Positions 21,701 to 51,900 of a DNA stretch of 64,000 nt are shown here, piece by piece. Positions within the stretch are counted from its first letter, which is position 1; each line of letters opens with the position of its first letter. Position numbers and translations under genes: made by a program. The stretch spans positions 31,436,524 through 31,500,523 of the forward strand of contig NC_134845.1 of the NCBI RefSeq assembly GCF_965363235.1, written 5' to 3'. Under the pieces are notes generated by a model, which did no database searches, had not been told where the DNA came from, and worked only from the letters and a program-made list of their open reading frames with translations. This DNA is from Mytilus galloprovincialis (taxonomy: Eukaryota; Mollusca; Bivalvia; Mytilida; Mytilidae).

Positions 21701-24700
21701 CACCTGTATATTTTCATGTCCGTTCTGGTCTTTAGTGTTTTTTGGGGTATGTTGGGGTATATTGGGGTAAAAAGTCACGCCGGCCATATACCCGACAGAC
21801 CTACTTACACAATCCGATACAAGAACACGACAACATTCACATACTTATTCTTTCAGACCCATACAAACCACTAAAGACACATACAAGTACTCATTCTACC
21901 CCAGAACAATCTTACAATGGAACCTTCTCCCAGTAGCTGCAGTTCAATGTACTACTCTTGAAAGCTTCCGAGAACAGATTCCAATATCTGTTCTCAATAA
22001 AAATCTAAAAATTTAAATATCCTACAATGTATATAGTTTTAACCAAAATGTATAGTACAAAAACAGAAGAAAAAGTAATTATGTTAAAATTTTTATTTTT
22101 ATTTTTTTTTGTATATTATTCACTGTAAATAAAAATTAGATCCCATGCAAGCGCGGCATAGTAAAATCAGTGCCCGGCACGTTATCATCAGTATGTTGAT
22201 GGAGTGCTGAATTATAAAGAAGAAGAATAAGTCTAAATGTTAAACTTAAACTGGTCATGTAGTTAATACCTGAGACTACTATAACACAGTGTTATAGTCA
22301 TGATAGTAGTCTCAGTTAATACTTGGAAAATACACTTTATCGCTATTTGTCGGCCATTACTGGATATCACACAGGTTCCCGTAAAATCTTGACGTCATAA
22401 AACAAAATATCTGACGTCACAATGGGAAAGTGATTGTTGTATGCGTCAAAAGTTCAAGCGGCGGGGTCAGCCGGGATTAGCGATAAGGTGTATTTAAGTC
22501 AGTAAAAGTGGGGTATTCACTAGTCCAAATAATTATGACGTCTGGCAAGGCTATTTTAATTTTTTCCTGGGACGCCTTCCTACGAGCCTTGTCACACGTC
22601 ATAATTAATGAAAAAAAAAAAAAATAGCCTTGCTCATGTTGCCAGACGTCATAATTATTTGGACTAGGTATTCACAGGCCCTTGTTTCTATCCATGGAAA
22701 GACCCACTCATGAATATATGTTCACCATTTCCATTCTCAATTTTATTTGTTGATAGTGGGTCTTCCCTGTTTTCAAGGGAAATATACCCCCACTCTACAA
22801 ATAAAGTTCATATTGTTACTTGTAGCTGATATTTTATGACATCATTATACAGACAACCATATATTCTAATAATTCAGAACCTTTCAGACCACTGGTGCTA
22901 TCACCAGACAAATCAGATAGAACATTGTAGAATGCATGTTCTTCTTCTTCTTCTTCTTCTTCTTCTTCTTCTTCTTCTTCTTCTTCTTCTTCTTCTTCTT
23001 CTTCTTCTTCTTCTTCTTCTTCTTCTTCTTCTTCTTCTTCTTCTTCTTCTTCTTCTTCTTCTTCTTCTTCTTCTTCTTCTTCTTCTTCTTCTTCTTCTTC
23101 TTCTTCTTCTTCTTCTTCTTCTTCTTCTTCTTCTTCTTCTTCTTCTTCTTCTTCTTCTTCTTCTTCTTCTTCTTCTTCTTCTTCTTCTTCTTCTTCTTCT
23201 TCTTCTTCTTCTTCTTCTGCTTATAGTGCAGTCTTTTAAGTACCTTCTTATGAAGCCTAGTGTTTTGTTGCCTCTACTACTCACTTTGTTGTCAATATGT
23301 CTGTCCCAGGTTAGGTTATCACTGATTGTTATTCCTAGGTACATGTATTTGCTGGCTTCAAATATCACTGATTGTTATTCCTAGGTACATGTATTTGCTG
23401 GCTTCAATGGGGTCTAGTGTGTGTCCATGTAGCTTGTAGTTGTACATTTTGTAATAAGTTGGTATCACTTGGAGGTTGTTTGATTGTATTTGGATTACAA
23501 TGCATTTTTTTGCATTGACACTCATTTGCCATTTATTCCCAAGTCTTCTAATGACGTTAAGATAATCCAATTTCTGCAGTAGGTTGGAGTACATGTAGGT
23601 CGCTTTCTGCTTCGTTGCTAATTGCTTCCTCATCTCTATCTCATTTCATTAAATTTTCTTTTTACATCTTATTCAATAGCAATCTGCAACAATATACATG
23701 TACATGTACTCCACTGGTTAAGAAGTTTAGTCCAAATGAATTAGTACTATTAAAAGCATTTACTTTTAGTAGGATATTATAGTCCTCAAATTGTAGCACT
23801 AATAAAGTAATACATACTGATTACAATTTACAATTGTTTCGGAAAAAACAAGTTCAACTAGGAACTCCTTAATGTTGAGATGTTCAATAAATGATATGAT
23901 CGTTCTAAAAAAAAAATAACATTGTTAATTTGTATGGACAATGATGGATCTTCATGCTTCAATGAAATTATAAAGTTTATTATATATTTGAATTTGTTTG
24001 TTTTGCAGATTCCTGTGGCATGTAAAACATGTGGTTGTGGTCATAAATTCATCACTAAAAGTAGAGCAAACTCAACACCAAGTGTGAAAACTGAAGGTAT
24101 AGTATATAAATCAACTCAAGGAATTCATAATTTGGATACTTAAACAAACAAAAAACACAAATGAATTTTCTTAAATTGGAAGTTGAACTGAAAATTTTCA
24201 GATTTGTAATGTGGGATCGATAAGCCAGTACATCTGAAATCTAAATTTTAAAGAAATTTTCCCCAAAAATTTTGACAAACAAATGTTTGCAGAAAAATGA
24301 ATAATTATAACAATATTACATAAAGATTAAGAACTTTAGAAAATTCTTCTGTATTAACAAAAAATGCATCTTGACATGATAGAAGAAGTATGTTCAAATT
24401 TGATTTCTTGTACATAAACCTGCTTATATTAACAGTAAGTTTGTAATAAAACAAATAGAATTATCTAATAATGATAAAAGTGTTATTAAATGGCTGTTTC
24501 TGTATTGGTCCTGGTATAGATTTCCCATCAGTTGTATTGGCACTCAACTCTTAATCTCAGAGCCAATACAGCTAACCTTAAATCTATACCAGGGTGAATA
24601 TAGAAACACTATATTTTTGCACCTAATTATTCTCTATTTTTGTCGAGCCTGCAACTTTTGTTGCAGAAAGCTCGACATAGGGATAGTGATCCGGCGGCGG

Positions 24701-48900: not shown

Positions 48901-51900
48901 GGGGTATTAAAAGAATATATATATATATGGAAGTGTTTAACGACCTTGACTGGCTATACAGCCCTCGCACGGTCGGCTCGGTGCCCGAAGGCTGTTGGTG
49001 AGCGTTTGAATATTTTGTGCCGTGGGTCAGGAACAGGTAGCAAAGGACGCCAAATGGAGGCCGCCATCTTGGTTTTGTTGAGTTGATTTTGTTTGTTTAC
49101 TATTTTGGTGTTATTTCTTCACTAACGGCTGCTTTCAGGGCCAGATTGGTCAGCTTGGCAGCCCGCTAGCCTCGATGATGGAGTACTGGTAGATGAATCG
49201 TGGACGTAGTTCTAAAGATGACAGGAAGCGTTATCAGGACCAAAGCCGTGAGGCAGTGAAATGAAGGTCGTATCACCCAACAGCCTAGGATACAGCCCTC
49301 GGACGTTAATCGGCATAACACTCCCCATAATACAATGGTTTTGGAGTGCATGTTAACGCGGGTACGCCAACTATTACGTCTATCTGTACGGCACTGGATT
49401 GGTTTCTGTCATCTTAAGTAGTAAGTCGTTGATCATCTAACAATAAACCCTCATCGAAGATAGCGGGTAAAGGAGAGTTGGCCCAGCACGTCCGTTCAGC
49501 TGTAATGACTGAGACGTGACTGTAAATGGATTGGATTGAAAAAAAAAAAAAAAAAGAATCAATTTATTTCACATTTGGGCAAATAAAGGAATTTTCTTAC
49601 ATTGGTTTTATAAAAAAAAAAATTAGCCATTTAGTTATAAACTAGATGTGTCAAAACAACACGAATGGCCCCGTCTCAAAAAGTTGAAAAATCTGCAATT
49701 TTAATAACACATGTGGACACAAAAATGATGGTAGTCTCACATATCAAAAATCAGCTCAAAATCTGGAGGCGTATAGAAAAATGTCCATATAACTGTGTTT
49801 TTCAACAATTTTCAAAGTTATAAACCCTTAATTTTGGCAAAAATTAGCTGAGCGGAACGAAACTTAATCTGTAACTCATCATGGTTAGCTCACATACCAA
49901 AAATTAGCCCAATATCTGAAAGAATTTACAAAAAAGGTCCGTATAACTGTGATTTTCAAAAATTTACCTAAGTCCACAGCCTGAAATTACAACAAAAATT
50001 AGCTGAGCTGAATAAAACTCAAACTTGATCTGAAACTCATCATGAGTAACTCACATACCAAAAATCAGCCCAATATCTGAAAGTATTTAGAAAAAAAGTG
50101 ATTTTCAACAATTTATCAAAGTCTAAAGCCCCCAATTTTGGCAAAAACTAGTGGTGTGGAACGAAACTTAAAATTGATCTGTAACTCGACATGGTTAACT
50201 CACATACCAACAAGAGGCTGTCACAACGACAGCAAACCGGATTTATTAACATTTATTTGTGTCCTGGCAATATCACAAGAACCATTACTGATGAATGTGA
50301 AAGTGAAAATGGTCAATATCAAATTTGACCTCCATTTTGTCATCAGTATCAACATATTAAAATTTGAAAAGCTTAGATTGAATGGTTCATGAGTAAATGC
50401 AACAACGTGAATGGAAACGCCATTTTACGATCTTTCAAGAACCATAACTCCTGAACGGTAAAAGTCAAAATCGTCATTATTGAACTTGACCTCTATTTTG
50501 TCATCAGTAACAACATATAAAAATTTCAAAAGCTTTGGTTGAATGGTTCATGAGAAAATGCACGGACACGACTGGAAACACCATTTTTCAATCTTTCAAG
50601 AACCATAACTCCTGAACGGTAAAAGTCAAAATCGTCATTATTGAACTTGACCTCCATTTTGTCATCAGTAACAACATATTAAAATTTGGGAAGCATTGGT
50701 AGAACAGTTCATGCGTAAATGCACGGACACGACTGGAAACTCCATTTTTCAATCTTTCAAGAACCATAACTCCTGAACGGTAAAAGTCAAAATCGCCATT
50801 ATTAAACTTGACCTCTATTTTGTCATCAGTAACAACATATAAAAATTTCAAAAGCTTTGGTTGAATGGTTCATGAGAAAATGCACGGACACTACTGGAAA
50901 CACCATTTTTCAATCTTTCAAGAACCATAACTCCTGAACGGTAAAAGTCAAAATCGTCATTATTGAACTTGACCTCCATTTTGTCATCAGTAACAACATA
51001 TTAAAATTTGGGAAGCATTGGTAGAACAGTTCATGCAAAAATGCACGGACATGACTGGAAACTCCATTTTTCAATCTTTCAAGAACCATAACTCCTGAAC
51101 GGTAAAAGTCAAAATCGCCATTATTGAACTTGACCTTCATTTAGTTGTCAGTAACAACATATTAAAATTTTAAAAGCTTTGGTTGAACGGTTCATGAGTT
51201 AATGCACGGACACGACTGGAAACTCCATTTTTCAATCTTTCAAGAACCATAACTCCTGAACGGTAAAAGTCAAAATCGCCATTATTGAACTTGACCTTCA
51301 TTTAGTTGTCAGTAACAACATATTAAAATTTTAAAAGCTTTGGTTGAACAGTTCATGAGTCAATGCACGGACAACATTTGATTGCCACCCGCCCGCCGTA
51401 CATCCCCAAATCAATAACCGACATTTTTGTCACAAAAATCCGGTTAAAAATCAGCCCAATATCTGAAGGCGTATAGAAAACAACTCCGCATAATGGTTTG
51501 TTGCGGAATGACGGACAAGGGTAAAACTATATGGCACCAACAACTTCGTTGCCGGGCCATATAAAACATTTTTCAACTTGAAATATCATATAACTTTAAA
51601 ACTACATGTATGGCATCATTAATCAATTAAACATGTTAAACCAATTAAGGCCAGGATTTTTAATTTGTTGGTTTACGAATCCGCCGGGCCGATTTTGCTG
51701 ATTTGCAGAATAAAAATAAAATTGACTTTTTCTCGCTTTTTTATTTCCGCCGACCCAAAAAGCAATACCTCTCAAAAATAAATAAAATATCCTTTTTTAT
51801 CAAATGAAATGCATTAAACACTAACCGAATTGATAAAACTTTCTGTTGTGAAAACTGAAACTTCCAATTATGTATCTAAAAACAGACAAATCAATAATAA

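Follow-up and report, generated by a model that had tools for sequence, protein, structure and literature searches.

Short non-autonomous rolling-circle elements of the Helentron (Helitron2) superfamily, termed HINEs, have already been described in bivalves. In Crassostrea gigas, 11 Cg_HINE elements are described, several mutually unrelated and several with GTCY, GTCC or GTCK tracts, which have a T-rich target and make no duplication (PMC7492417). The origin of the oyster HINE repeats is left open in that report, with two scenarios given, and MgE of Mytilus galloprovincialis, which it describes as having a comparable architecture, shows that this element type is already known in a mussel. A GSPH Rep motif is given as Helentron-type elsewhere, together with the rules that members of one family have at least 11 bp of identical subterminal inverted repeat (subTIR) and members of one subfamily at least 80% identity over the last 60 bp (PMC4067079). 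The Helitron2 target is reported to lie between TTTT and T or C (PMC5148889). Here we analyse a 64,000-nucleotide stretch of the 1.385-Gb M. galloprovincialis assembly (C8:31436524-31500523; the window), in which copies of seven families of short elements, named after their heads, are present by reading of the sequence: A (ATGCCCC), B (AGCTCACC), C (GTCGAGC), D (ATGGCC), E (ATACCCCC), F (AACCGGATT) and G (GTCACCC). We consider it very likely that all seven are HINEs, and we identify an autonomous Helentron lineage that is probably the partner of family F.

Autonomous elements of the required kind are present in the genome. The Helitron_like_N profile gives 138 matches, pieces of one copy being counted separately, and the Rep motif in 30 loci reads GSPH in 28 and GLPH in one (L009), with none in the remaining locus (L010). 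One lineage, J, has a single 2308-aa frame with OTU, DUF6570, Rep, PIF1 and Exo_endo_phos matches, and the GSPH Rep, PIF1 helicase and endonuclease that characterize Helentrons are thus found in one open reading frame (ORF); the same five domains lie in 2754 aa of a longer frame in group I, and the H_C12 frame also carries Exo_endo_phos. No Pfam endonuclease match was obtained for H_C5 and group II, to both of which J aligns at 30-40% nearly to the C-termini. In a second lineage, hereafter the F-type Helentron (C14:65817568 and C7:26040771), an open frame of 2129 aa contains the Rep match. Its C-terminal 154 aa, which are all the protein that was compared, show a match to Exo_endo_phos_2 below the curated cut-off (E 3.5e-4) and none to J by BLAST at 1e-3, a search in which other groups matched.

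The 3' ends of these autonomous elements were sampled in 20 windows of 2 kb and, for groups I, II, H and J, in longer stretches as well. In two lineages, J and F-type, a homology breakpoint with a subTIR, a hairpin and CTTGT marks the end, and their subTIRs differ. For J, the similarity of loci L062 and L063 breaks off after GGGAGACTTCGTAACAGCATCCTGTTACAATTATTTCTTGT; the end is the same in L067, with alignments that continue 14 and ~41 bases into AT-rich sequence. For the F-type Helentron, L074 and L085 match at 98% identity along 643 bases and lose their similarity after AGAATCCGGTTTACTGTCATTTTGACAGCTCTTGT, the terminus consisting of AATCCGGTTT, a palindrome and CTCTTGT. When a 300-base J 3' probe was run against the genome, 40 of 1200 candidates were scored; three were Rep-linked copies (94-100%) and the other 37 places were 76-85% identical and reached query position 295-300. 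First-look candidates for the window families, which are loose counts, numbered 2097 for A and 715, 864, 792 and 725 for the heads of B, C, D and F.

Comparison of the F copy in the window with the F-type Helentron provides the evidence for a pairing. The two are 77% identical over the last 158 nt (E 7e-28), and 53 of 61 columns agree over the last 60 bases, the corresponding figures for the other six families being 31-44 of 65-72. Moreover, when the last 60 bases are removed, the local score is still 86, compared to a shuffle maximum of 32 and to 19-25 for the six other families, and six further places in the F array of the window match a 101-nt segment from the Helentron 3' end (73-78%). A 70-base probe from the F-type end gave 258 first-look candidates, and the 40 that were scored are all 100% identical. 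In locus L087, 191 bases that are 99% identical to the Helentron end directly adjoin an F unit, which over 82 bases is 94% identical to the most similar units of the window. A probe made of this unit and tail gave 916 candidates, and of the 40 scored tail matches, one is the probe and one the autonomous C14 copy; among the remaining 38, an F unit is contiguous with the end in 14, lies upstream within 1.6 kb in 20 and is absent in four, so that 34 of 38 carry it, a fraction that is to be read with the knowledge that the probe contains an F unit and the sampling favours copies with one. Successive units are spaced 149-152 apart in 33 of the 36 intervals, which derive from 70 of the 80 unit rows.

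On these comparisons, a young non-autonomous family with an F-like array has its 3' end in common with an autonomous Helentron, and the window F copy, whose units are 161 bp long and whose tail has diverged, appears to be an older relative. The fact that F has a subTIR, a palindrome and ~150 terminal bases in common with one lineage points to sequence-specific pairing, and the F-type Helentron, as a candidate partner whose 3' end has been compared, probably moves family F. The Helentron end may have given rise to the array, or the array to the Helentron end. We tentatively suggest, while giving the idea somewhat less than even weight, that the tandem core of a HINE may have grown from the 3' subterminal segment of its own Helentron, each lineage breeding its own satellite-like family. 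Rolling-circle copying would then re-read the stretch that precedes the 3' stop signal and add units, and the trace of this growth would be the 101-nt similarity of the F unit to the Helentron 3' end.

These observations bear directly on the proposal, made when this DNA was read from its letters alone (the sequence-only reading), that a single Helentron-type enzyme mobilises all seven families by recognising structure and CTWGTT (CT[AT]GTT) rather than body sequence. The presence of CTWGTT in all families, of a 5' hairpin in their best copies and of a mostly T-run target would agree with it, as would the lack of a partner for six of the seven. Such ends occur, however, in two autonomous lineages whose subTIRs differ, the F-type C-terminal 154 aa has no match to J, and the terminal 60 bases of F are common to one lineage specifically. 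The different subTIRs, taken with the missing BLAST match, leave the single-enzyme claim without support, and we regard it as unlikely. The results suggest instead several enzyme lineages, each with its own HINEs, as opposed to one promiscuous enzyme, and the families other than F would have Helentrons of their own. The search for an autonomous Rep-helicase element with the same termini, which the sequence-only reading had proposed, gave elements with CTTGT 3' ends of the same kind, namely J and the F-type Helentron.

The elements and element parts found in the window are as follows.
16355..16387 (-): family A fragment (A6), traced at its 3' end
24642..25743 (+): family C copy (C1) with 5' hairpin, GGC tract, 147-bp tandem units and 3' end CTCTTGTT; no clear 3' subTIR found
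26620..26892 (-): family A copy (A5) without 5' hairpin
27847..29333 (+): family B copy (B1) with 5.8 units of 166 bp, split by A1
28976..29268 (+): family A copy (A1), nested in B1
29430..31225 (+): family B copy (B2) with CGTCCGT tract and repeated units of ~500 bp
33094..33366 (+): family A copy (A2)
34400..35648 (-): decayed family C copy (C2), 3' limit approximate (by reading); CTWGTT end not found
40264..41186 (-): family A copy (A4), longer than A1, with a 19-bp tandem duplication of the head (41152-41190)
43235..44407 (-): family B copy (B3), 5' hairpin lost, split by A3
43802..44242 (+): family A copy (A3), nested in B3, where uninterrupted B units supply the empty site
44411..45095 (-): family D copy (D1) with 3' end CATCTAGTT, adjoining B3
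48252..48907 (-): family E copy (E1) with GGAC tract, 168-bp units, 3' hairpin and CTTGTT
49640..51560 (-): family D copy (D2), split by F1
50209..51445 (-): family F copy (F1) with 6.8 units of 161 bp, 3' subTIR, palindrome and end CTCTTGTT; nested in D2 with the empty site recovered, its 3' end common to an autonomous Helentron lineage
62270..62297 (+): eighth, hairpin head, AAGTCTCCC...GGAGACTT, with 17 nt in common with the reverse complement of the J Helentron 3' end
62394..62931 (+): family G copy (G1) with 5' hairpin, 3' subTIR and CTAGTT

A second family C 3' end lies in locus L042. Six families fall inside the interval 24637-51567 to which all seven had originally been assigned, and G is located outside it. 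The bodies are unrelated, as had been claimed, in that cross-family BLAST with one copy each (E 0.01) returned only a D-F match that reflects F nested in D. Tandem units had been taken as part of the common plan, and Tandem Repeats Finder (TRF) called them among the families only in B1 (166 bp), C (147 bp), E (168 bp) and F (161 bp); the units of B2 exceed the limit of this program, A1 amounts to about one unit, and no tandem call was made in family D. The longest Met-to-stop frame is 38-76 aa in A1-A3, B2, C1, D1, F1 and G1. Elsewhere in the window, we observe a possible SINE-like (short interspersed nuclear element) repeat with a terminal A-run (48926-49556, by reading), a long TTC tract of 94.7 copies with 99% matches (22939-23222) and a ~46-bp tandem array of 23.6 copies (9763-10839).

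The termini show a common plan, for the most part. At least one copy of each family ends in CTWGTT, with CTTGTT in A, C, E and F and CTAGTT in B, D and G; the window holds 106 such sites, and the motif alone is not diagnostic. Hairpins were compared to 300 dinucleotide shuffles per end, and the 5' hairpin in the best copy of every family is reached by only 0-2 of the 300, being weak in D1 (51) and lost in B3 (288). The 3' hairpin, said by the sequence-only reading to be usual, is clearly better than shuffles in E (3/300) and F (0/300) and fair in three copies of B (42, 12 and 5 of 300). An inverted copy of the head starts 25-30 nt from the 3' end in A, B, D, F and G and 34 nt from it in E. For families A to G, the subTIR scores of the true head-tail pairs are 9, 8, 4, 7, 10, 10 and 11, and these are reached by 3, 1, 1562, 26, 0, 0 and 0 of 2000 shuffled tails. 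The 42 mismatched head-tail pairs score 4.4 on average and 7 at most, and the true pairing ranks first of 5040 (59 vs 58, mean 35); because this lead amounts to one point only, the shuffles are the stronger control. The perfect match of the asymmetric terminal inverted repeat (ATIR) is 7-11 bp in six families and absent in C. Consequently, the subterminal inverted repeats at both ends that mark HINEs are found in six of the seven families, not in C, and the Helitron2 arrangement (a 5' ATIR 0-2 bp from the end with a hairpin, and a 3' ATIR ~20-30 bp inside) is likewise seen in all except C, with E at 34 nt. The ends are not those of canonical Helitron1 elements (5' TC, 3' CTRR, insertion between A and T, no 5' hairpin), since here we find CTWGT(T), a T-run target and 5' hairpins.

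Pairing of heads and tails in 362 kb of sequence yielded 24 rows, 16 from family A and eight from the other six families. After dropping two window copies repeated via L001 and one A4 tail counted twice, 21 distinct right flanks remain, and T directly follows CTWGT in all 21, compared to 106 of 229 background CTWGT sites in the window. The left T-run is at least four long in 19 of 22 rows, the exceptions being E (0), G (2) and an A copy in L080 (2). For all 24 rows, the flanks were joined with the element taken from head to CTWGTT, and the resulting junctions were compared to other sequence, as the sequence-only reading had recommended. Gap-free junctions for A3 in B3 and F1 in D2, aligned to uninterrupted B or D units, reveal no target duplication. 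T-rich or TT insertion without duplication, as in HINEs, was accordingly found for families A and F. Joined flanks of A2, A4 and G matched their own surroundings, and the remaining rows gave no match. In addition, an E element is inserted in J Helentron copy L063 where L062 reads TTTTTGTTTC unbroken (by reading). The junction data fit T-run insertion without duplication, with one terminal T assignable to neither element nor host.

The same junctions bear on whether these might be cut-and-paste elements of the terminal inverted repeat or miniature inverted-repeat transposable element (MITE) type with asymmetric ends. Inverted repeats are present at both ends, and the literature is said to have described DINE-1-like elements from other species as MITEs (PMC4067079), but both gap-free empty sites lack a target duplication, the 3' inverted copy lies 25-34 nt inside the end, and Helentrons have such 3' ends too. 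We therefore consider a cut-and-paste origin highly improbable. That the seven families are HINEs follows, with the high likelihood stated above, from their ends, from T-run insertion without duplication where this could be tested, and from the existence of autonomous Rep-helicase-endonuclease elements with 3' ends of the same kind, and the class assignment of the sequence-only reading is thereby upheld. On the inferred mechanism, the Rep, helicase and endonuclease of a Helentron would nick at the T-flanked end of the element and peel off one strand, copying would stop at the 3' signal (subTIR, palindrome, CTWGT), and the peeled strand would insert into a T-run without duplication.

Several results weigh against assignment of all seven families to HINEs, or against the pairing of F. 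A convincing 3' inverted head copy was not found in family C, and in A (53-158), C (279), D (166-270) and G (114 of 300) the 3' hairpin does not exceed shuffles. E1 has a Met-to-stop frame of 154 aa on the reverse strand, perhaps because its 168-bp unit is a multiple of three, and HINEs lack coding capacity. Gap-free empty sites come from only two of the 24 rows (A3 and F1, families A and F); that of an A copy in a D host (L055) is off by one T, and the joined flanks of B1 gave only weak 73-74% matches with a 4-base gap in the T-run. A CTWGT end at a breakpoint was not seen in 18 of the 20 Helentron 3' windows, several of which hold arrays or are too short. The termini resolved for the J and F-type lineages are 3' ends, and a third window of the F-type Rep group, L086, aligned with neither L074 nor L085. 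The subTIR match between F and the F-type Helentron is 10 bp by reading, one short of the published family rule, and no partner was found for families A, B, C, D, E and G. Some of these observations would also suit the view that the plan partly reflects chance, or the picking of patterns in AT-rich, repeat-rich DNA: CTWGTT is frequent in the window, four families have unremarkable 3' hairpins and C fails the subTIR test. The subTIRs of five families are nevertheless reached by three or fewer of 2000 shuffles, T follows CTWGT in every right flank, and independent copies cease to be homologous at the CTTGT end, and we give chance almost no credence.

Groups I and II were also considered as partners and rejected, their 5' regions holding A, D and E sequence and no CTWGT end being resolved 3'. 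In group I, A-like sequence lies upstream of the ORF in four copies (L045, L047, L051 and L053), a further copy, L049, having no A match; in group II (L054, L055, L056 and L058), D-like sequence lies upstream of the ORF in four of four and A in three. Because the A and D tails are upstream of the ORF, we read them as nested insertions, and HINEs may have become nested in these Helentrons before the copies spread. Group I 3' regions (L039/L040, L046, L048, L050, L052) show a CAATTGTTC..GAACAATTG hairpin followed by GGTTTTTAATT or similar, and in some, ~940-bp segments are bounded by this hairpin, an end type unlike CTWGT. Group M (L066, L068, L069) was set aside as a possible partner of B; its 3' region holds a 72% B-like unit, but this is absent from L071, whose 142-bp array occupies the next 700 bases. 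In both autonomous lineages, a coiled-coil-like open frame precedes the Rep ORF by reading (L084 305-949; L063, reverse strand). After it come AATAAAG and a long T-run with AG at its end, and this frame is a possible ORF1.

The architecture and class of these elements are thus already known, and the breadth of unrelated families under one signature, singled out as novel by the sequence-only reading, has been published for oysters (PMC7492417). What is new, apart from the members themselves, is the probable partner of F and the link between a tandem unit and a Helentron 3' end; a mussel HINE-Helentron pair was not found in a search of open-access papers. Since HINEs spread satellite-like repeats through bivalve genomes, a probable partner with a homologous tandem unit makes the questions of partner and repeat origin that are open in oysters (PMC7492417) addressable by sequence comparison. 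The present families resemble Cg_HINE in having a 5' subTIR, a complementary inverted repeat, a GTCC-type microsatellite in several, mostly 140-180-bp units, a 3' subTIR, to which a palindrome above shuffles is added in B, E and F, and a T-rich target without duplication. In the oyster, however, 10 autonomous Helentrons are known and none is described as relatable to Cg_HINE (PMC7492417), whereas family F has its 3' end and part of its unit in common with an autonomous lineage. By published description, the pearl elements CvA, CvE and CvG and MgE are similar in carrying short arrays of ~160-bp repeats between HINE-like ends (PMC7492417, PMC11136912). Helitron2 has two hairpins, the 5' one formed by the ATIR, and ATIRs of 8-15 bp with the 3' copy ~20-30 bp from the 3' end (PMC3627910); the corresponding values here are a match of 7-11 bp at 25-34 nt, in families other than C. 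Finally, HINE-Mo/DINE-1 and Helentrons share with our elements the subTIRs, the 3' palindrome as seen in B, E and F, and TT insertion without duplication, and HINE-Mo also has a Rep-PIF1-endonuclease partner with the GSPH motif, but it is described as a simple deletion derivative of that partner (PMC4067079), whereas the F type has a tandem core.

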